64,000 bases of DNA from Microbotryomycetes sp. JL201. Lineage: Eukaryota > Basidiomycota > Microbotryomycetes. Shown here piece by piece: positions 51,519 to 64,000 of the stretch. Positions within the stretch are counted from its first letter, which is position 1. Every line of letters begins with the position of its first letter. Location: positions 186,001 through 250,000 of the forward strand of contig JAQYUZ010000022.1 of assembly GCA_033819885.1 (NCBI GenBank). Direction: 5' to 3'. Made by a program: the position numbers and the translations under genes. Below the pieces are notes generated by a model. That model was not told the origin of the DNA, made no database searches, and saw only the letters and a list, made by a program, of their open reading frames with translations.

Positions 51519-51941
51519 GACGACTGGCTGGTTGGCTGGATCTGGGCGAAGGCGTGGTGGTGCACGCGTGATCAAACCAGACGAGGGCGTCTGCGAGCTA
51601 TGCTAGCAGCAGTCAAGCACTTGTCGCCAAGCTGTCAACAACGGATCGAGGGGGCGAGCGGAGGACAGCCGGCGTGCCGGATTGAGGAGCGATGAACAGT
51701 AACGCGACAAGGTCACGTGCCCCGAGTCTGCCCTCTTGTCCTGCCGAGCTCCTTCATCAGCTTCTGCACACTCGCGCTCAATCGTCAGTCCACGCTGTAG
51801 TCAACACGTTGAACTTGCGACTAGACTTGTCGTCTCCCAGCCTTTTCTGCTGTCGCGCACTTCGGTTCAAAAGCCTGGCCACGCCAAAAAAAACTCGCCC
51901 GAGCGCACACTATTGACCCGCCCCGCGTCGAAACAACAGCC
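51519..51941. promoter_or_regulatory. Divergent intergenic region, beta-adaptin and DIM1
   Basis: About 420 bp between starts. Short ORFs here look like chance; no repeat or structured RNA noted. Confidence 0.4.
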
Positions 51942-53363
<1,422 letters not shown>

Positions 53364-53724
53364 GCAGGTTCTGAGCGCCCACATTTTCATGTTGTTGTTG
53401 TTGTCACCAGGAGGAGGGTCCTGAGCTTGATTTTCATAATTGCATTTGAGCCAATGGTTCCTCTTCTGGGTGGGACAGTCAGCTTGCTCATGCAACATCC
53501 TGAACAGTGTTGAAAAAGGACACTGCAGCTGAACTCGCTTCAAGTCAAGGCCAGGCAATGCCATGCAAGCGCTGAATTGACAAGTCTGGCGTTCTAGACA
53601 AGGGAGTCTGGGAGGTTTGAACGTGTAGCCCAGTGAATCAATGCAAACTCATTCTCTTGCAAACTCGTTCTCTTGCAAACTCGTTCTCTTGCAAACTCAC
53701 TGATCTTGCTGTACAGTGTTGTTT
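53364..53724. repeat. Start of repeat island; 16-bp tandem repeat
   Basis: No gene. A 16-bp unit (GCAAACTCGTTCTCTT) is repeated about 3.6 times at 53643-53700 with one base change. A minus-strand open frame overlapping the end of DIM1 has no known domain. Confidence 0.6.
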
Positions 53725-53880
53725 TGTTGTGAACCTGGCTCCTGAGCTTTAACCGAATACACCAACTGGCCTGCCAAGAAGGCATAATTCCATGCTGGAA
53801 GCCGGAATGCTCAGTACTCTGTCAGCCAAAAAGCTGATCATGGTCAAAGGCTTTCTATTTGGATGTGAGGTGGTCTGACA
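53725..53880. repeat. Old LTR-like copy, family L1 (copy 1)
   Basis: Starts TGTTGTGAACCTGGCTCC and ends GGTCTGACA. It matches copies at 55026-60957 (split) and 63143-63293 along its length, with many differences. TG...CA ends and about 156 bp suggest a solo LTR. A clear target duplication is not left (TGTTT/CGTTC). Confidence 0.6.
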
Positions 53881-55025
53881 CGTTCTTCCAGGACTTGAAA
53901 CCAGATTTTGTGTCACAAATGCATTCAAGTCAGCTGGGAGCAGAATCATTGTTCTTTCCACTTGGGACCTGCGCTCAGGCCCTGTCTTGCAAGCCTTGCT
54001 TTGTTCTCTGGGGTCTCTTTGTTCTCTTTGTCCTTAATCTCTTAAGCTTTGTTCTCATGCCTTGGTCATGGGTCTTCTCTGTCTCAGGTCTCAGTCTTTG
54101 TCCTTGCGTTTCACTGCTCTCTCTAGATTAAAAGAAGGCCCTGCACTTGGTTCTCTCTCTCTCTCTCTTGTTTCCGCAAATAATATCTCGTCTTTCCCTT
54201 GCCACATTGTCTTGCACTTTGCCGCCTTTGCTTGAAGAGACTCCTGTCCTGTCCTTGTTTGCTCACAAGAGAGAAGCCTTGTGGGTTGGTATGCTCAGGT
54301 GTCTGCAGGTGTCTGGGACTGTTGGCTTCTAGGTTTGGTGGACAAGTCTCTGTCTTGGTCTTTGGTCTTTGGGAATGCTGTGCTGGAGTTGGAGCTCAGG
54401 AGCCAGGTTGCACAGCATTCAGGTATTTCAGCACAGCTTTGGGTCTTTGGGGCTGTGCACAGCTTTGGTTCTTAGAGTCTGTCTAGCCTCTTCTGCTCTT
54501 CTCTCTCATGCAATCACCTTCTCTCCTTCAAGCATGCAGCATCCCAAGTGACTCTGTGACTGCTTGTAGCACTGCAATTGTCCTCTCTTCTCCACTTGTG
54601 CCTTTGCCTGTAACTTGTTGACAGCGCCTGGCCTCCTCTGACATCCTGTTTGTTGTCAAGCAAAAGAAATCTGTGGCAATTCAAGAGAGTAATGCTGGCA
54701 CATGTGCAGTCATATTGGTTACTCAATGTCACAGCACGCAGGCCATGTGAAGCAAGAAAGGCAAAACATCTGCTGTGTGTTTGTTTCCTCCTTCTTGCAG
54801 ATGGTGGAAATGATTGCTTCTTAGGAAGTACATGACAGCATGTTGCAGAAGCAAAGGGGCATTTGATAAGCTTCAGGTGACTAAGGCCAGACGGCATGGC
54901 AAGTAAGCACAAACATGAAAAGGCAATTGCAATTTTTTTTTTTTTTTTTTTTTTTTGTGGAATGGAAAGCCTGCAGCATTGGCACAGCCTATATGTAGCC
55001 AAATACAGTTGTTCCACGTCCTTGG
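53881..55025. other. CpG-poor repeat DNA without genes
   Basis: Low-complexity CT/TG-rich sequence with a CT microsatellite near 54155-54170. From about 54224 to 54623 (400 bp) there is not a single CpG despite near-50% GC. A run of 24 T (54933-54956) may be the poly(A) tail of a minus-strand retroposed copy. No protein with a known domain. Confidence 0.6.
54933..54956 (-). repeat. 24-nt poly(T), possible retroposon A-tail (minus strand)
   Basis: Uninterrupted T run; read on the minus strand it is an A-tail following sequence from 55025 down to 54957. No matching target duplication was recognised, so the retroposon reading is inference. Confidence 0.35.
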
Positions 55026-55050
55026 TGTCATGATTCTGACTCCTGAGCTT
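55026..55050. repeat. Left piece of an L1-family LTR interrupted by the copia element
   Basis: TGTCATGATTCTGACTCCTG followed by AGCTT matches the first 25 bp of the other two L1 copies. The rest of the same LTR continues on the far side of the copia insertion at 60834-60957. Confidence 0.65.
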
Positions 55051-55301
55051 AATGAATAACCGTGTAACGCTGCTACACGAGTTAGATAGATGATCAACCC
55101 TGTTGCAATGCGAGCCAAACCGTGTAACGCTGCTACACGAGTTAGATAGATGATCGACCCTGTTGCAATGCGAGCCGCACTAACCTGCTACACGAGTTAG
55201 ATAGATGATCGACGGAGGAAAAGCCTCCGTCGGAACTTGCATAGCCTAGGGCCCAATGCCTCCTGTCCTGTTGACGCCTGCTCATGCCGTGCCTTCTTAC
55301 T
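55051..55301 (-). repeat. Copia 3' LTR (251 bp)
   Basis: Ends are fixed by comparison with the other LTR and by the target duplication. It holds two and a half units of a 60-bp tandem repeat (the other LTR has one and a half), with a GTGTA/TACAC inverted pair in each unit, and a stem-loop at 55211-55231 (stem GACGGAGG, loop AAAAG). The ends are not the usual TG...CA. Confidence 0.88.
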
Positions 55302-58300
55302 CGCCCCTTCGCAACGAGAAACCATTTGAGTTGCGCCCCAGAACCAGTGCCGCGTCCGTCCGTATGTCGCCGCCTTGTACCTCGTCGTCGTCTGTCATGC
55401 CCAGTAAATGACACATGCGTTGATGTGTGACGCAATCCAGCCCCTTTGTCATGACGTCCGCAGTTTGTCGCGCCGTGGCAACCCAATTGATCACGACAGT
55501 TTTGCGTTCGACGTGATCCTGGACAAAGTGATGGTGTACCGCGATGTGTTTTGTCTGTTGGTGATTCGTGGGATGGTCGGACAGAGCGATGGCGCTCTTG
55601 TTGTTGCAGTAGATTGGTACAGGCCCAGATTGCTTGAAACCCATCTCGGCTGTCAGGAATTGAAGCCAAACGGCCTTGCGCGTTGTCTGTGAGAGGGCGA
55701 CATACTCAGCCTCTGTCAAAGATAGGGTCACGAGCGTTTGGCGCTTCGACGTCCACGAGATTGGCCCGCCGCTCATTTTGAAGACAAAGCCGGTAACGCT
55801 GCGACGGGTAACGGGATCTGCTGCGTGGTCAGCGTCGCAATACGCTAGAAGTGAGTGTGCAGGCGCGTCGGCGTAGTGCCGATACCGTATGCCAACCGTG
55901 CATGTCTCTTTCAGGTAACGTAGAATCCGTTTGAGGTCAGACCAATGCGTCCCGGTGGGCGTAGCGGAGTAGCGGCCAGCCACGGAGACCGCGTGGGCAA
56001 TGTCAGGTCTTGTTGCGCCGGCCAAGAAATTCAGCAAGCCCAACACGCGGCGGTAGTCAATCGGTAACGGTTGCGCCTCGCGTTTGGATAAGTTGGAGAC
56101 AGGTTTATGGGAATGGGGTCGCATAGGCAAGGCACGTCCGCTGCAGGTTGACATGCCGACCGAACCAAGCAGTTGATCAACAAACGCCGTTTGCGTGACG
56201 GATATTGTGCCCAGATCCCCCTCGCGTGTGACCTGTTGTCCAAGGAAGTGCCCCACGCTGGGCTGGACCTTGACTTGGGATGCGGCCGTGAGTGCATCAA
56301 TAAACTCGTCGAGGTCGCCATCTCCGGCGAGAATGCCGTTGTCGACGTGAATTGCAAGGAGAATGGTGCGCCCCTTCTCGTCGACGCGCTTGAACACAGC
56401 GTGGTTGTGTTGAAGGCGAGTAAAATTTTGAGATGTCAGCCAGCTACAGAACGTTGTGTAACATGCGCGCCTGGCCTGACGCAGACCATACAGTGCGCGT
56501 TGGAGCTTGCAGACGGTGCCATCGGGCAGCGCAAGGTAGGCGTCGACGTCAATGGGTGCGTTGAGATAGGCGGACGATACATCGAACTGGCGTGTGGGCC
56601 ACCAATTTCCGGCCGCAAGCGACAGGAGGATGCGAGAAGAGGTCGGGCGACTCGTCGGCGAAAACGTGTCCGTGAAATCAATGCCCTCTTGCTGCATGTC
56701 GCCTTGTGCTACCAGCCTGGCTTTGTACTTGTCGACGCGGCCCTCGCCATCACGCTTGACAACGAGCACCCATTTTGATTTGATGGGGCGTATGCCTGCC
56801 GGGAGGAACTCAATTGGCTCCGAGAAAGTGTTCATTGCGTGGAGCGCCGCCATTTTGGTGTCAATTGCTTCGATCCATCGATCACAATCTGGCCCAGCTA
56901 ATGCGCGTTTGTATGTTGGTGCGTCCTTGTTTGGCTCGGCGTACAGGGCAATATCGTTGCCGTCTACATAGGCGTGACCTAGAACATCTTCAGCGCTGTC
57001 ATTGTCGTCGTATTGAAGTTGAGTAGCGCACATCAGGAACTTGACTGTGCTACTGGCGTCAGACACATGATAGGCTGTGCCGGACCAAGTGCAATTTTGG
57101 ATGATGTTGCGGGTGTCAACGTTCTCAAGAGGGCTAGGGTTGGGTCCGGTGGGCACCGTGACGTAGTCGCTCGCTACAAGGGTATCTGCTGCGCCGTGGG
57201 TGGTACTCAGTGACGAAATGGACTGCTCACCCTTGCCAGTAGTTGCATTACGTACCGGCGGGGGAGCCTCCTCGATAAGGTGCGGGCTCCCCACTGCTGC
57301 ACTAACTTTTCCGTAATGAGTAGGGGCCTTGCGTGTGCGTTGTTGTCTGCTTGTGGGTGCAGCTTGCCATGCTGGACCAGGATTGTCAAACTGTAGATTG
57401 CGTGGTGGCGTCGCGGCATTGTCGCTGTTGTTGGTGTCGTGACCGTCCCTCCCTTGCAAGTCTCTGTGGCGCTCTTGATTGATGTCACAACCATCCCTGT
57501 CTCCATGGCTTTCAATCCCATTTACCGCCTCTCCATGTTGCCTACCCTCCGCCGAGGTGTCCGAGGTGCGTGTCAAGTCATTGTTGATCGGTGTCGTAGG
57601 TGAGTCGTCGTTTGAAGATGAATCTTGAGTCGTGTTGTATCCGGGCGTGAGATCCAGTCGTCCATCCGCGGCGTAAAGTGGAGTTGATTGTTGTTGGTAT
57701 GGTGTTTGAGTGGTTGGTCTATTGTCAAGATTGCTATCTATGTCCAGAGCCCTATGTTCCGGAGAGGTTCCGTGGCTAGTGCCTTTGGGGATGTGTTCTC
57801 TATCAGCAAAGGTCACACCGTCTGTTGTATCAGCATTATCAAGGTTCTCCCAGTCCGTCTCATTTCCCCAATTCAGTACCTCCGTATCGCTGGAGCGCAC
57901 CCAATCGAATTGATCTTTGTGGAAGGTGGCATGCGACGATTCAAATACCTTCTTTGCTGTCGCGTCGTAGAACAGCCAGGCCTTGCTAGTCATTGAGTAT
58001 CCGACGAAGCGGGCAACGCGGGCCCTCGGCGAAAGCTTACTCCGGGTCTGTAGAGTCTCGTGTGAGAACGGGACTGTGGCGACGCAACCCCAGGTGCGTA
58101 GCCGGTCGGTTGCAGGCGGATAGTCTGCAGTGCTGGCGCCGTCGTAGAATACCTGGGCCGGTGTGCGGCCGTTGTTGGCTTTTGACGGGGTCAGGTTGAT
58201 GGCGTAGACTGCCGCCTGCATCGCCAGTAACCAGAACGATGCTGGTAGGCCAGACCATAGGAGCATAGCCCGAGCCGCGTTCTGAATTGTGCGCCAACCT

Positions 58301-60543
58301 CGTTCCTGGACACTGTTTTGATTGTGTTGGTACGGCGCCGATTTCTTGTGATGTATGCCGTCGGCAAACAGCCGCTGGAGGAATTCTGTGCTGTTGAATT
58401 CGCCCCTGCCGTCGGTGCGCAGCGCCTGTACCTTGAGCGAATGATGTTTTTGCATGTGCGTCAGCCATCGGATCAAGGTGTTGGGCACAAGGGTCTTGTC
58501 GCTGAGCCCAAATATCCATCGGTACCGCGATGCGTCGTCGGTAACGCCAAGGACGTAACGCGCGCCGCAGTGCAACGCTCGAGTGCGGACGGGTCCGTAC
58601 AGGTCGGCGTGAAGGCGCTGAAGCGGCGTGGTGGACCAGTGGACGGCACTCTTGCGGTTGGACACAGTGTGAGACTTGGCTAAAGCGCAGTGCTGGCATT
58701 TCTGAACCTCATCCAGTTGACGTGTGCGTGATATTTCATTGCAGTGCGCTACTGTAATCTGACCGTCCCTTTCTAGCTCCAGCAACCGTGAGACGCCAGG
58801 GTGACCTAAGCGCTTGTGCCAGGTGAGAAGCCCTGCGGGAGTAGGGGACGGTACAGATGCCTTCAGCGCAACGTCGGAGGTTGAGGCCGTGAGCCAACTT
58901 GCCTTGGCGTGGAGCAAATTGTTGCGGCGTTCAAATGTGGCCATCAACTTGTCGCCTTTCAGCAGGTGATAGTTGTTCCCCTCGCCCCAAGACCGGAAAC
59001 CGTCATTGTAGAATGCGCCAAGAGAAAGCAGCGTGATCTGTTGTGTGGCCAGCACGTTGCCGGGGACGTAATACACCTCCTTCACCACGAGATTGTTGCT
59101 AGCGTCTTCGAAGCGACCGCGCAACATTCCAACGCCAATGGCGCGACCATTACCAGCAAATCCTGCGACGGGAAAGCTCTGTTTACCAAGTGGTTGGTAC
59201 CCAATCAGATTTTTCTTTGAGTTGGTAAAGTGCTTGGTGGCACTGGAATCCAGGATCGTTAACTTGGCCTTTTCTGCGCCCACGTGCAAAGCGAGCTCGT
59301 GGATGTGCGCGGCGAAGTCCCTTGCGAGTTGAAACCAGCTTGCGCCTCGCCACCAGGAGGCTGATCCGCACTCCCCATGACGAACCATGTAGCCGCCGGC
59401 TGTTGGGTTGTCATCTGCTTCCGAGTTGACAGCCACGTCGCTGATGTCGCTGTTATTGTCGTGGGTCACGTGGTACGCCTTGGCTTGTGCAGGTGTGGCC
59501 TTGATATTGATGCGGGCTAAGTTGGCGATGCGTTCATTGAGGCAAGCTCCTTTGTCATGGCGGTGGGGACAGCAGTTTGCCCAGTGGCCTTTTCCAAAGC
59601 ACAGCTTGCAGCTGCCGCGTAACCGGACGCCGGTGGCCTCCATGACAATGCCATGTTTAGTTAGCGGGCCTTGCTTCTTGGTCTTGTGAGGTGCATCTGC
59701 CGGCTGCGCGGAGAAGGCAGCGGCTGGAACGTTGTTTGCGAGGGAAACTGAGTCTTTAACGCGAGCGTCGTTGTCGCCAGCATATACGACGAGGGCACCC
59801 GCTAGCCGAGTCCATGAGACATCGTCTGTTGTGGCCAGGTGTTGATCGAAAACGGGTTGAAAGAATATGCCCGCCTTCGTTTTGGCCGCAACAAGCAGGT
59901 CAGCTAGGACAAAGTCTCTGATTGTCTCAGCTTTCTCCTTGACAATCCATTCCTGATACACGGCTTGTGGCTCTCTGGTCAGGTGTCGCCGCCACTCTTG
60001 AGAGCGATAGGCTGCCTCGCACTGGTCTGCGCGTTTCTTGAACTTGCGTGTCCATGCTTGCATGGTCATGCCTGAGTCTGTGAAGGTGGGCATGTTGTGG
60101 AACGCGTTCCGTGCGTTCATCATGGCCAGTCGTCCAACTTTGCCAGCAATTTGAGTGTCAAGCGAGGCAAACAGCTGGGTGATGTCCTCCGGTAGGGTCA
60201 CGTCGTCGCTACATGGACCCAGGCAGATGCGGACCAGTTTCAGTGTGTCGCCTCTGCGTTTCCGCCAGGCGTCGTTCTCTTTTTGGAGGTCATAGATTTC
60301 CTTCAAAAGCTCTTGTTTCTCTTTGGGGAGGTGGGTTTCCTCCGCGTCACGGCGCAATTTGTCGAGGGTCGCCTCCGACGTGCAAGTAAGTTTGCCGTTG
60401 ATGATGGATGCAAATCCCGCCTTGTCGAGCACAACGCGGAGGTCCTCCCGGAAGGCGTGGTAGTTGTCGCCCACTGGCCCCAGTGGGTAGTTGCGCAACA
60501 TGTCCGCGGCGGCCTGCTGGAGGCTGTCGTGTGCACGCGACAT
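55297..60543 (-). CDS. Copia gag-pol polyprotein (1,748 residues)
   Basis: One open frame. In order: gag region with a CCHC zinc knuckle (CKLCFGKGHWANC); aspartic protease (LDSSATKHFTN); integrase zinc region (HKRLGHPG ... CQHCALAK) and core (LHADLYGPVRTRALHCGARY, RTDGRGEFNSTEF); a long acidic/Asn-rich linker; reverse transcriptase (KYKARLVAQGDMQQEGIDFT, FDVSSAYLNAPIDVDAYLAL, LQRALYGLRQARRACYTTF); RNase H (YCDADHAADPVTRRSVTGFV, LTEAEYVALSQ). All parts of a copia polyprotein are present in a single frame. The stop overlaps the edge of the 3' LTR. Confidence 0.92.
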   Translation of the reverse strand: MSRAHDSLQQAAADMLRNYPLGPVGDNYHAFREDLRVVLDKAGFASIINGKLTCTSEATLDKLRRDAEETHLPKEKQELLKEIYDLQKENDAWRKRRGDTLKLVRICLGPCSDDVTLPEDITQLFASLDTQIAGKVGRLAMMNARNAFHNMPTFTDSGMTMQAWTRKFKKRADQCEAAYRSQEWRRHLTREPQAVYQEWIVKEKAETIRDFVLADLLVAAKTKAGIFFQPVFDQHLATTDDVSWTRLAGALVVYAGDNDARVKDSVSLANNVPAAAFSAQPADAPHKTKKQGPLTKHGIVMEATGVRLRGSCKLCFGKGHWANCCPHRHDKGACLNERIANLARINIKATPAQAKAYHVTHDNNSDISDVAVNSEADDNPTAGGYMVRHGECGSASWWRGASWFQLARDFAAHIHELALHVGAEKAKLTILDSSATKHFTNSKKNLIGYQPLGKQSFPVAGFAGNGRAIGVGMLRGRFEDASNNLVVKEVYYVPGNVLATQQITLLSLGAFYNDGFRSWGEGNNYHLLKGDKLMATFERRNNLLHAKASWLTASTSDVALKASVPSPTPAGLLTWHKRLGHPGVSRLLELERDGQITVAHCNEISRTRQLDEVQKCQHCALAKSHTVSNRKSAVHWSTTPLQRLHADLYGPVRTRALHCGARYVLGVTDDASRYRWIFGLSDKTLVPNTLIRWLTHMQKHHSLKVQALRTDGRGEFNSTEFLQRLFADGIHHKKSAPYQHNQNSVQERGWRTIQNAARAMLLWSGLPASFWLLAMQAAVYAINLTPSKANNGRTPAQVFYDGASTADYPPATDRLRTWGCVATVPFSHETLQTRSKLSPRARVARFVGYSMTSKAWLFYDATAKKVFESSHATFHKDQFDWVRSSDTEVLNWGNETDWENLDNADTTDGVTFADREHIPKGTSHGTSPEHRALDIDSNLDNRPTTQTPYQQQSTPLYAADGRLDLTPGYNTTQDSSSNDDSPTTPINNDLTRTSDTSAEGRQHGEAVNGIESHGDRDGCDINQERHRDLQGRDGHDTNNSDNAATPPRNLQFDNPGPAWQAAPTSRQQRTRKAPTHYGKVSAAVGSPHLIEEAPPPVRNATTGKGEQSISSLSTTHGAADTLVASDYVTVPTGPNPSPLENVDTRNIIQNCTWSGTAYHVSDASSTVKFLMCATQLQYDDNDSAEDVLGHAYVDGNDIALYAEPNKDAPTYKRALAGPDCDRWIEAIDTKMAALHAMNTFSEPIEFLPAGIRPIKSKWVLVVKRDGEGRVDKYKARLVAQGDMQQEGIDFTDTFSPTSRPTSSRILLSLAAGNWWPTRQFDVSSAYLNAPIDVDAYLALPDGTVCKLQRALYGLRQARRACYTTFCSWLTSQNFTRLQHNHAVFKRVDEKGRTILLAIHVDNGILAGDGDLDEFIDALTAASQVKVQPSVGHFLGQQVTREGDLGTISVTQTAFVDQLLGSVGMSTCSGRALPMRPHSHKPVSNLSKREAQPLPIDYRRVLGLLNFLAGATRPDIAHAVSVAGRYSATPTGTHWSDLKRILRYLKETCTVGIRYRHYADAPAHSLLAYCDADHAADPVTRRSVTGFVFKMSGGPISWTSKRQTLVTLSLTEAEYVALSQTTRKAVWLQFLTAEMGFKQSGPVPIYCNNKSAIALSDHPTNHQQTKHIAVHHHFVQDHVERKTVVINWVATARQTADVMTKGLDCVTHQRMCHLLGMTDDDEVQGGDIRTDAALVLGRNSNGFSLRRGE

Positions 60544-60642
60544 TGTGATTTGTTGGGTAGCCTAGCGAACGGTTTGTTTCTTCGATGAGGTGGGGCGAGG
60601 CCTCGTCTACCGTTTTCTTTGCTGGACAGGCCGACGCTACCA

Positions 60643-60833
60643 AATGAATAACCGTGTAACGCTGCTACACGAGTTAGATAGATGATCAACCCTGTTGCAA
60701 TGCGAGCCGCACTAACCTGCTACACAAGTTAGATAGATGATTGACGGAGGAAAAGCCTCCGTTGGAACTTGCATAGCCTAGGGCCCAATGCCTCCTGTCC
60801 TGTTGACGCCTGCTCATGCCGTGCCTTCTTACT
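60643..60833 (-). repeat. Copia 5' LTR (191 bp)
   Basis: Matches the other LTR except for one fewer 60-bp unit and three transitions, all TCG/TTG (or the complement). The primer-binding site begins at the next base (60642, minus strand), confirming the boundary. Confidence 0.88.
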
Positions 60834-60957
60834 AGCTTCAATCAAGAACATCAACTGGCTCAAAGGGGTGTAACCCCAAGCTGGATGGCTGGTATAACAT
60901 CAGCCTACAAACTGGCAACAAAGATAATGTTTCTTTTGTCAATCATGTTGTCTGACA
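60834..60957. repeat. Right piece of the interrupted L1-family LTR (copy 2)
   Basis: Continues the L1 LTR after the copia target duplication: AACTGGC, CCAAGCTGGA and the terminal GTTGTCTGACA align with copies 1 and 3. More diverged than copy 3. Confidence 0.65.
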
Positions 60958-61488
60958 CTTCCATGTTGAGCTGAATTTGCATAGGCACTCAGCTTGCTGT
61001 GCGTGCTGTGCAAGAGTGCTGGGGGTCCAGCTAAAAAAAACACACCCCAGTGAATTGCAGGCTTCTGATATGTCTGCATATCACACAGAAAGCCTGATTG
61101 GCCAATGGCAGGCGGGGTTATTTGTTAGCCATGGGCTTACTTGATCATGCTTCTCATAATTGAACTTGTTAGTGACGCTTCTGAACTGCTTTCTACTTTG
61201 GACAGCTTCTACCCTGGTATTCACTGCTCAGGCAAAGCTGTGTAATCCTTGCAGCCTTGCTGGGGTCAATGGCAGGAGAATGCTGCTTAACTTGCAACAG
61301 CAGTTTGCATGGAATGTCTGTGTGGGCACTTTGCAAAGCAAATGAAAATGTTCACATTGCCACTTCTGCTTTGCAAACACAAGGAGCATGCTTATGTCAC
61401 TGTGCAAGCTTCAGGTTGAATGCAATCTCTCTGGGATGTGAGATTGTTGCAAACTTGCTTTGCTTGCACTGAATCAAATCAAGACTGT
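60958..61488. other. Repeat-island DNA, no gene recognised
   Basis: About 530 bp, CpG-poor, CTTGCA/TGCAAG-rich. No known domain in any frame. Confidence 0.5.
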
Positions 61489-61826
61489 GTCAGAGACAGC
61501 CGAGCGTTGCAAACAAGTTGTCGAGCAAGACGCAGTGGCAAGTCCCTTTGCAAGTGGCAAGTTGCAAGACGGGAGTCCCTCAAAGGTGTGAAGCAAGGTC
61601 AAGCAAAGTCTCAGACAAGGTGAAGACGCGTTTGATCTAGTCTTGTCTTTGTGCTAGCTCTGTTAGTTTTCTGCAACTTGATTCTCGTCTTCACCTCGTC
61701 TGAGACTTTGCTCGACCTCGCTTTGCACCTTTGAGGGACTCCTGTCTCGCAACTTGCCACTTGCAAAGGGACTTGCCACTGCGTCTTGCTCGACAACTTG
61801 TTTGCAACGCCCGGCTGTCTCTGACA
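61489..61826. repeat. Large near-perfect inverted repeat (foldback/MITE-like)
   Basis: The left arm (61489 to about 61629) and right arm (about 61686 to 61826) are about 140 bp each and differ at only about eight places, all transitions and mostly at CpG. The spacer is about 55 bp. Outer ends read TGTCAGAGACAGCC. No transposase and no clear target duplication were seen. A transcript would fold into a long hairpin. Confidence 0.8.
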
Positions 61827-61838
61827 GACTGAGAATCA

Positions 61839-61891
61839 AGCTCTGCCTTGAGAAGCCTCAAGGCAGAGCTTCTGCTTCTCAAGGCAGAGCT
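61839..61891. repeat. Compound hairpin next to the inverted repeat
   Basis: AGCTCTGCCTTGAGAAGC (61839-61856) is the exact reverse complement of 61874-61891. A partial extra copy of the right-hand word lies between them, so two alternative stems can form. Confidence 0.65.
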
Positions 61892-62178
61892 TCTGGTCCT
61901 ACTCCAGTGGGGCAGAAGAAAGTGGTGCAGTTTACGTGACTGTCAGGAGAGGAGAAGGCATGTGGTACATTGCCAGTCAAGAGCTGTCACAGAAGCTACA
62001 GAAGCCAACAGTTGCACTGCAGACTGCAGACTGTGCATGTGGTAATTGTCTGCAGCAAAGATAATCTGACTGTGCACTGTACCTTACTTCTCCATTTGGG
62101 TCTCCTGTTTTGTAGTTTACCACTTGCAAGAAAAACACCTTACACCTTTGCTTGTAACTCAATTACAGTGCCAGGCCT
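61892..62178. other. Repeat-island DNA between hairpin and solo LTR
   Basis: About 290 bp with no recognisable gene or element; rich in TGCAGACTG-like words. Confidence 0.4.
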
Positions 62179-62853
62179 TGTTACAGATTCCTAATATCTG
62201 GTGGCGGTGCTGGGTCAGCGGACTTGACCGCCAGTGGCTGTCACAAACAGTTTTGCCACTGTCACGTGTCACGCCTTTGCTTGGACTTCGTGGAAAGCAA
62301 GATTGGATCAAGATGGTCATCAGGCATTGATTTGGATCTTGTTTACGTCAGTCTTTTGTCATTGTTAGCTCTATTTGTACATAGTTGTGCTCCAGCTCTC
62401 ATGTTCCGTCACCAAGCCATTTCTTGGTCTCAAGCTTTATTCCCTGTCGTCATTGCCCTGCTCCGCCGCTTCCTTTGCTTTCAGTCAGTAGCTTTTGTCT
62501 TTCTTGCAATTCAGATCTTGTTGTTTACCGTCACCACGGTTTGCGCCACTTTGTCCTCAGCCTACGCTACTTGCTTGCCAGAGATCCCCAGCCTTCTCTT
62601 TGCACCTTGCATTTGCTCAATTTGCCACTGCGCTCTTGCCACTCAACTCCAGCCGCGACAGTGGCAACAGAATTTGTTCTTTTGGTTTCTTCCTGATTCT
62701 ATGAGCTTAGTCCTCTTCTTGCGCTTTGGGTAGCTACATATAGTCGTTGAGGAGGCTCTCTCTTTCTCTTCCTCAGATCCTTACTTTGTGTTCACGCTCT
62801 GACAAGAGAAGCCTTCTCCAGACAATAACACTACTATTATACAATCTGTAATA
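62179..62853. repeat. Solo LTR of a second retroelement family (675 bp)
   Basis: Starts TGTTACAGATT and ends AATCTGTAATA, short inverted ends, with a perfect 5-bp target duplication GGCCT on both sides (62174-62178, 62854-62858). Contains a CATATAG TATA-like word near 62735 and a CT-rich interior. No coding capacity, as expected for a solo LTR left by recombination. Confidence 0.75.
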
Positions 62854-62858
62854 GGCCT

Positions 62859-63137
62859 TCTTTGACAGAAGATCTGAGTTTCATTCCAGACATCTGTCTT
62901 TGTCAAGTTATGTCCTGCGCCCTTGTACTCAAGCAGGTCAAACTCAGCCATTTCTGCTCCTCCTTCTGATGGACAGCTGGCCCAAGGCCATTCAAGCTCT
63001 GGCTGACTTCTATCAACAGACCTTTTGTGGTAGTGAGAAGGTGTCATTGACAAGATATAATGAAGATTGCTTTGCTGCCTGCTCCACTCAGGCTTCTGAT
63101 CTTCAACACAGTTCAGATCCTTCTGCTGGCAGTGTGG
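62859..63137. other. Repeat-island DNA with an undefined open frame
   Basis: The plus-strand frame at 62900-63163 runs into the next LTR and lacks any known motif. Probably a decayed repeat fragment. Confidence 0.4.
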
Positions 63138-63142
63138 TGGAG

Positions 63143-63293
63143 TGTAATGAACCTGGCTCCTGAGCTTTAACCAAGTACACTAACTGGCCAAAAAGGCACA
63201 AAATCCAAGCTGGAAGCTGGATTGCTCAGTACTATATAAGCCAAAGAGCTGGTCAACAAAGGAATTCATAGATGTGTATTAGGTTGTCTGACA
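63143..63293. repeat. Solo LTR, family L1 (copy 3), with intact target duplication
   Basis: Starts TGTAATGAACCTGGCTCC, ends GTTGTCTGACA (151 bp), flanked on both sides by TGGAG (63138-63142, 63294-63298). A TATATAA promoter word lies near 63234. The intact target duplication proves these are the true ends of the family and helps define copies 1 and 2. Confidence 0.8.
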
Positions 63294-63298
63294 TGGAG

Positions 63299-64000
63299 TG
63301 ACATAGAAAGACCAAGGCAAACTACAATCCATAATAAATATACTTGAGAATCCAGCCCAAGGCAATCTGAGGGACTTTGTGCCTACTTCTGTGCCTTTGG
63401 GTGAGATGCCATTAATGCCACAAGGTCAATCATTCCTGTACCACATAATGCTGCGCCTTGCAATGTGCTCTGTCTATTGGTTCTGCATTGGCTTTTGCCT
63501 TCACTACATTCTTTAGGTCACCACCTTGTCTGGACCATGCTTTGACCTTCAAGCTGAGAACAATCAGCTTTGTCAACATGCTGCTGCTCATGTATGTAGG
63601 AATTCCACCAGCCCCAATGCGCAGCTATCTCAGTAGCAAAGAGAGGGCCCTGGACAACAAGGATGAGCTGGAGGCGCACATGAACATGTTATGCAGTGTA
63701 CCTTTTCCCTCATTGCTTTCCCTAGGGCCTCGGCCTCTGACCTTAGCCGGACTAGCCGGGTTGTTTTCTTACCACAACATAGCTGTTCTCTCCTACGCGT
63801 CCTTGTCGCTTGGCGCTCACATAGAGACTTGTCCACTTGCTACAGGTGTACCACCAGCCGCATTGCGTACTTCGCATAATAGGAACAGGAGCGTTTGGTG
63901 CCGGACAAGTTTGGCTGAAGGCAGGTTGAGGTTGCAAGGCAACAGGAAATGGCAACGAGTGGCAAATGTTGTTGTTCTTGCTTCTGGCAAGCTGGTGTTG
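63299..64000. other. Right-hand end: repeat-island DNA, no gene recognised
   Basis: About 700 bp; only short unconnected open frames. A CCTAGGGCCTCGGCC-like GC-rich patch near 63720 is the only feature that stands out. Confidence 0.4.

Follow-up and report, generated by a model that had tools for sequence, protein, structure and literature searches.

A C-to-T mutation process that is directed at TpCpG trinucleotides and resembles repeat-induced point mutation (RIP) is reported for Microbotryum and other Pucciniomycotina in the available portions of PMC5381629, PMC10502011 and PMC4352252, one of which describes stronger footprints in non-recombining regions rich in transposable elements (TEs). 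According to the same portions, both gypsy and copia elements are hit, and a DNMT1-class, Masc2-like gene is present without RID. Neurospora RIP (RID / DIM-2) changes C to T in transposon DNA on both strands and differently in each copy, its target being CpA in the portion of the literature at hand. The CpG-biased hypermutation of the basidiomycete Rhizoctonia solani AG8 is, in the available part of its description, denser near repeats, affects genes and repeats alike and was expected by its authors to follow a CpG but not a TpCpG bias. In Salmacisia, by contrast, a strong signal of RIP is reported to be absent. Here the end of a contig of Microbotryomycetes sp. JL201 is described, in which a CpG-poor transposon island, holding a Ty1/copia element and an inverted repeat derived from a gypsy long terminal repeat (LTR), adjoins CpG-rich host genes. 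The window, i.e. the whole stretch that was analysed, comprises 64,000 nucleotides (bases 186001–250000 of the 250417-base contig JAQYUZ010000022.1, in an assembly of 17.15 Mb and 92 contigs).

In the islands, repeat copies are depleted of TCG at a rate well above that of other CpG, which are lost more slowly, and of non-CpG cytosines, and the sampled relatives in CpG-normal DNA are spared. The reading preferred here, with a probability of roughly 0.55, is that the transposon islands undergo a TCG-directed C-to-T process, RIP-like TpCpG in its outcome, which would act via a methyltransferase in island heterochromatin and would be directed mainly by location and not by copy number alone. The JL201 case is a further instance of the TpCpG process already reported, with which it shares the trinucleotide, the damage to both gypsy and copia and, going by one PF00145 search, the DNMT1-class gene without RID. 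A preliminary description of this DNA had mentioned TCG-biased RIP-like mutation as reported for Microbotryum and some other basidiomycetes, and the literature agrees for Microbotryum. Unlike in the Pucciniomycotina reports, island copies of an element could be set against copies of the same element elsewhere in JL201, and those sampled beyond the islands were clean.

TCG loss in island repeats

The ratio of observed to expected CpG (o/e) per kb is 0.87–1.44 in positions 1–53000 of the window, where a Pfam family match was obtained for four of five long frames tested (one below its cut-off); the host genes are CpG-rich, as had been described. The ratio drops to 0.13–0.41 across 53001–55000 and 61001–64000. 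The onset of depletion lies at about 53150, and the rest of the window is affected except for the copia, more mildly over the final few hundred bases. Repeat copies were gathered by DNA searches with three queries (LTR, inverted repeat, dispersed repeat), followed by all-against-all alignment; with later fetches, CpG-poor stretches (o/e <0.9) were found on 21 contigs. Sampling was small, comprising the window, the search-derived stretches and interior controls that total 40 kb; island families are over-represented because the searches began in one island, and pairwise counts are not independent.

In the 156 non-copia pairs at 90–99.9% identity, C/T differences occurred at 523 of 956 TCG sites, as against 61/553 at ACG, 87/539 at CCG and 57/673 at GCG, counts that take in only pairs of at least 100 bp within each identity band, omit the identical ends of contig C21 and, through overlapping pairs, register single mutations repeatedly. 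The 12 non-CpG contexts ranged from 0.011 to 0.085, and transversions at TCG were not raised (0.004). Aligning the copies of each family and tabulating the context of transitions had been suggested in the preliminary description, and the change is indeed concentrated at TCG. The strong preference for T before C would also suit a cytidine deaminase with an APOBEC-like taste for TpC, or an error signature of retrotransposon reverse transcription. In the same pairs, however, TCA (0.049), TCC (0.073) and TCT (0.020) hardly change compared with TCG (0.547), hits fall on both strands, and an element resembling a miniature inverted-repeat transposable element (MITE) by its ends, family X, is hit too and does not look like a product of reverse transcription. 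The deaminase was rejected on the low change at TCA, TCC and TCT, and an explanation of either kind is very improbable.

In the gypsy alignment, of which two parts were scored, TCG columns were C/T-variable in 25/26 and 40/48 cases and other CpG columns in 12/44 and 13/81 (Fisher p = 8e-9 and 2e-14; columns with fewer than three comparable copies skipped). When ten gypsy copy stretches were set against the copy on C12, in which nearly all CpG are kept, 114 of 298 TCG were lost, together with 30 of 522 other CpG and 9 of 1536 non-CpG cytosines; changes private to C12, which itself has a few hits, show in this comparison as ‘other’ substitutions in all rows. The rates are 0.383, 0.057 and 0.006 (about 65 : 10 : 1), the TCG rate being 6.7 times that of other CpG and about 65 times that of non-CpG C. 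Taken separately, the gypsy LTR and pol end lost 62/185 and 52/113 TCG, 13/307 and 17/215 other CpG, and 5/1079 and 4/457 non-CpG C. A published RIP-like index, computed with our own code from the published description with the overlap taken as TCGA, was calculated for 48 fetched stretches; it exceeded 0.25 in 21 of the 24 with o/e <0.9 and was at or below −0.01 in 22 of the 24 with o/e of at least 0.9.

The change is also polarised. In a test that pools all 12 alignments of the stretch C15:104348–107552 (69–89% identity, some overlapping), the remaining copies have T at 63 of 132 TCG sites of a CpG-rich relative, with 4/48 in reverse. Since the copia counts (28/97 against 4/63, see below) run the same way, the direction is loss of TCG. 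A TCG-directed mutator with polarity, acting on several families, is strongly supported. Base composition, assembly error or alignment artefact might be invoked, given the many island copies at contig ends and the breaks of the assembly within the gypsy LTR. Such an origin is scarcely credible, because the effect depends on sequence context and has a direction, is shared by several families, is not accompanied by more transversions and is absent from the interior controls.

The set of hits is particular to each copy, apart from a few that are shared, and the hits are graded. No CG-to-TA change was found in 611 CpG cells, CpG becoming TG or CA only. The base before C matters, and positions −2, +2 and +3 showed no consistent preference. 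Top- and bottom-strand hits are mixed, with runs within 2 standard deviations (sd) of chance; the lowest value (about −2 sd, more clustered) belongs to the short copy on C60.

The arms of the inverted repeat (61488–61628 and 61686–61826) differ at 8 places in 141 bp (94.3% identity), all transitions and seven in CpG (5 TCG, 1 CCG, 1 GCG, the remaining one being non-CpG), much as the preliminary description had it: about eight differences, all transitions, seven at CpG and mostly TCG. One TG/CA doublet between the arms resembles a single CG hit on opposite strands of the two. Relative to the C12 copy, in which the CpG are kept, the arms have lost 8/12 and 5/12 TCG and 1/17 other CpG each. A correction concerns the nature of the repeat: it is derived from the LTR of a gypsy-type element with SH3_Tf2-1 and chromo domains. 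This LTR, of about 405 bp, is found in one piece in seven other copies, and the C24 copy has a deletion. The flush duplication GACTG on both sides indicates that the hairpin derivative probably entered as one unit; its predicted RNA fold has −283 kcal/mol (z −31). Contigs C9, C31, C89, C51, C5 and C44 start, and C33 ends, inside the gypsy LTR, 76–103 bp from its 3′ terminus, which hints that more gypsy copies were left unassembled.

The copia element was identified by the domain order of its minus-strand frame, with RVT_2 downstream of the integrase, and its LTRs are flanked by the same 5 bp. The left LTR contains one 60-bp tandem unit more than the right one; besides this unit they differ at three positions, all C/T (or G/A) in TCG context and all with the changed base in the right LTR, so that the three TCG/TTG substitutions of the preliminary description were recovered. 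Its further statement that the copia body is CpG-rich holds for the o/e (0.86–1.16 per kb across 55001–61000) and not in the sense of exemption, as the TCG share of CpG is 0.199, against 0.265–0.332 in equal-size overlapping windows of the gene part (1–52500). In alignments of at least 150 bp with a C22 relative, 28 of 97 TCG of the relative are lost in the window copia and 4 of 63 in reverse, positions 60258–60718 being set against two C22 copies and so partly counted twice. A copia untouched by mutation was ruled out by this share and this loss. Within the only 2 kb searched, the middle of the element (56000–58000), its sole match in the assembly is itself.

CpG depletion of a single copy proved to be a different matter. 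The stretch 54224–54623 contains no CpG at 50% GC and had been taken as a sign of mutation; the count stands, but all eight aligned copies of its family have 0–1 CpG, and four of the seven others are 95–97% like the window copy. Because near-identical copies are all in this state, the loss of CpG preceded the spread of the family, and the stretch was discarded as evidence for mutation of that copy. A 151-bp family has no CpG in 11 of 18 aligned copies and 1–2 in the rest. One of its copies, 96–99% alike, lies at C35:61746–61896 in CpG-normal DNA near a sugar-transporter frame, and the element spread after loss of its TCG targets or never had any. The 315- and 151-bp families are uninformative on TCG because they hold almost no CpG.

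Copies inside and outside the islands

None of the eight interior 5-kb controls showed CpG depletion, and these stretches as well as positions 1–53000 of the window have an o/e near 1.1 and no TCG deficit. JL201 resembles R. solani AG8 in a CpG-biased C-to-T change in a basidiomycete and differs from it in that DNA outside the islands is not depleted.

Family X (355 bp, MITE-like) was compared at seven of its ten places, the ancestral C being inferred where two CpG-normal copies agree. Its four island copies are hit at 33 of 54 TCG and its three copies in CpG-normal DNA at 1 of 30 by leave-one-out (p = 8e-8; pairwise, 0–3 of 10–17). The spared copies, on C22, C6 and C44, are 87–91% alike and have a flanking o/e of 0.87–1.20; the label ‘gene-rich’ for these places was dropped, as Pfam gave no support (0/6 frames). 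At C22:156491–158088, 473 bp of a copia end are present twice in inverted orientation; the two linked arms, 96% alike and less than 1 kb apart, show no TCG difference at 29–30 sites per arm. Within a few kb of this duplication are two genes, one for a GMC oxidoreductase and one for a carboxylesterase.

Classical homology-triggered RIP with a TpCpG target would mutate duplications above a length and identity threshold at the sexual stage and leak into neighbouring DNA. Islands would then be hit as holders of long repeats, short copies elsewhere would escape by their length, and the copia would be hit by leakage or through former copies. The signature is identical to that in the available part of the Microbotryum report, hits are graded and different per copy, and family X is shorter than the Neurospora thresholds as given in the accessible portion of the source (about 400 bp linked, 1000 bp unlinked). 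Such a process is nevertheless hard to square with the absence of any TCG difference in the linked C22 duplication, with the TCG depletion of a copia whose middle 2 kb has no second copy in the assembly, and with the mixing of top- and bottom-strand hits. Because the spared family X copies, the 473-bp duplication and the depleted copia with its single-copy middle point the same way when taken together, direction by island chromatin is favoured, and homology-triggered RIP is rather unlikely. The JL201 process is like Neurospora RIP in changing C to T in transposon DNA on both strands and differently per copy. It is unlike it in its target (TCG here), in leaving the 473-bp linked duplication untouched and in that no third methylase locus was found by one PF00145 search. 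The earlier idea of a mutator acting on repeats can be kept as far as TCG-directed change in several families is concerned. It fits less well with family X, spared in three CpG-normal places, with the unchanged duplication and with the depletion of a copia with a single-copy middle.

The ends of contig C21 (C21:217191–218852 and C21:1–1662) are identical over 1662 bp, inverted, and end in a copia-type LTR, which may reflect true duplication in the genome or an artefact of assembly; they are the only long duplication sampled outside islands. TTAGGG arrays were found on 12 contigs, at the contig start in eight and at the end in C6, the other three being C1, C72 and C78. A subtelomeric nature of the islands was rejected for C25 and C38, where the island lies at the end opposite the array.

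Methyltransferase genes and proposed mechanism

A six-frame search of the genome for the C-5 methylase family (PF00145, E 0.01) gave three exons at two loci. On C8, a gene combines two methylase exons with a BAH domain, and one of these exons matches DNMT1 chains in the PDB. The locus on C55 combines a methylase exon (just over the Pfam cut-off in one search, under it in another) with an SNF2-like part, the sole PDB match of which is 7r76, named ‘DNA repair protein Rad8’ and presumably Cryptococcus DNMT5. Judged by these matches, the C8 gene is DNMT1-like, whether Masc2-like or of another DNMT1 class, and the C55 gene DNMT5-like. The genome contains cytosine methyltransferase genes of the type typical of basidiomycetes. 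In the available part of a 2026 review, the basidiomycete set consists of a DNMT1 with a replication-focus domain and DNMT5, both of the CpG-maintaining kind. Of the DNMT1, DNMT5 and RID-like genes that the preliminary description had proposed to look for, the first two thus have one candidate locus each; this one PF00145 search returned no third locus and hence no sign of a separate gene of the RID type.

Spontaneous deamination of the ordinary sort, acting on 5-methylcytosine where heterochromatin is CpG-methylated and requiring no special mutator, would explain why other CpG contexts change about tenfold over non-CpG C (0.057 vs 0.006), as decay of methyl-CpG would give. The milder rise of ACG, CCG and GCG in the islands and the near-complete loss of CpG from the most depleted island DNA are of the same kind, and both methyltransferases would, by the available part of the review, be of the type that maintains CpG methylation. 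The contexts are not alike, however, TCG being changed a further 6.7-fold (0.383 vs 0.057), and deamination itself gives no rule for a 5′ T unless methylation were limited to TCG. As the whole explanation it is quite improbable.

Under the location-directed process preferred here, a cytosine-5 methyltransferase, most likely of the DNMT1 class, would act in island heterochromatin, and a DNMT5-class enzyme would maintain CpG methylation. The methyltransferase would make or permit the conversion of C to T, strongly favouring CpG preceded by T, and one hit would destroy the CpG and thereby protect the partner strand. The chromo domain of the gypsy element would fit heterochromatin targeting.

Several points weigh against this proposal. 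Other contexts rise as well, with ACG at 11/94 between the copia and its C22 relative and CCG at 25/76 in the polarised test. The RIP-like index has exceptions at C44:121200–123800 (−0.18), the C12 start (0.01), the C44 start (0.19) and the identical C21 ends (+0.19 at an o/e of 1.09), and single 1-kb windows of positions 1–53000 are noisy, 15 of 53 having an index >0. The family X comparison left out C16, C47 and C60, and the six frames tested at its three spared places gave no Pfam match, so that a gene setting is unsupported and ‘CpG-normal’ is judged by flanking CpG. The spared copies may owe their escape to shortness (355 and 473 bp) or youth, as classical RIP would also allow, and further copia copies may have been lost or left unassembled, given the 2 kb searched; a minimum length, late arrival of the copies that escaped and the disappearance of earlier copia copies are possible alternative causes of the location pattern. 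The SNF2-like pieces at C55 have no Pfam match, and the replication-focus domain upstream in the C8 gene is a by-eye reading with no Pfam or PDB match. To our knowledge, a preference for TCG is not a property of either methyltransferase.

Layout of the window and meaning of the TCG pattern

The features of the island are collected in Table 1. The copia is nested in a diverged copy of a dispersed repeat that is found on both its sides (53726–53885; 55032–55050 with 60834–60870; 63143–63293), its insertion having duplicated AGCTT; the copy that it interrupts was identified by eye. Elsewhere in the genome, an ammonia-lyase exon has 324 of 493 residues identical to PDB 1t6j (no calibration), which we take to be from Rhodosporidium toruloides, a similarity that points weakly towards Pucciniomycotina. 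For 5.8S ribosomal RNA no match was found in the assembly (39 of 660 candidates scored), and the ribosomal DNA may be missing from it.

Table 1. Features of the transposon island at the right end of the window (positions of the window).
Feature	Positions	Strand	Remarks
Left part of CpG-poor transposon island, up to the copia	53151–55050	.	o/e 0.28 at 53151–53300 and 0–0.55 in 150-bp steps to 55100, vs 0.71–1.41 in steps 51801–53150
Member of nearly CpG-free repeat family, contains most of the zero-CpG stretch	54254–54598	.	8 copies aligned; CpG 0–1 per copy vs 12–22 expected
Copia target-site duplication AGCTT, left side	55046–55050	.	
Copia LTR (3′ LTR relative to frame)	55051–55301	-	extra 60-bp unit; TCG kept at the three differing sites
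Ty1/copia open frame	55297–60561	-	element mildly TCG-depleted; 56000–58000 has one match in the assembly
Copia LTR (5′ LTR relative to frame)	60643–60833	-	three TCG-to-TTG type changes
Copia target-site duplication AGCTT, right side	60834–60838	.	
Right part of CpG-poor island	60839–64000	.	contig end 417 bp past the window; last 450 bp less depleted, o/e 0.60–1.05 from 63951 on
Hairpin-like gypsy-LTR derivative	61488–61826	.	two inverted 141-bp copies of the LTR 3′ end around 57 bp; flanking 5-bp duplication GACTG at 61483–61487 and 61827–61831
About 420 bp in common with CpG-poor C45:573236–573655	62239–62659	.	92% alike; 8/10 TCG of the C45 copy are TTG in the window; at least 2 sites changed the opposite way
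Copy of ~355-bp MITE-like element (family X)	63026–63530	-	TCG-depleted; interrupted by the 151-bp element
CpG-free 151-bp insertion in the family X copy	63143–63293	+	18 copies aligned; 7 others 96–99% like the window copy

The TpCpG process of basidiomycetes has so far been inferred from patterns, and a 2012 paper reportedly found no such process in the species tested outside Pucciniomycotina. JL201 offers a matched test in one species, with the same elements hit in islands and spared outside, a nearly unhit reference copy and only two methylase loci found. A wider proposal, which we regard as possible rather than probable, is that the basidiomycete TpCpG mutator is heterochromatin-borne and not a duplication sensor: a chromatin-recruited, TCG-preferring methyltransferase would mutate anything in the islands, whether single-copy or repeated, and ignore repeats elsewhere, and small non-coding elements free of TCG, such as the 151-bp family, would keep spreading, even beside genes, as immune survivors. 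The CpG depletion of one copy can be a misleading guide to the age or the mutation of a TE, since in some families the absence of CpG preceded the spread.

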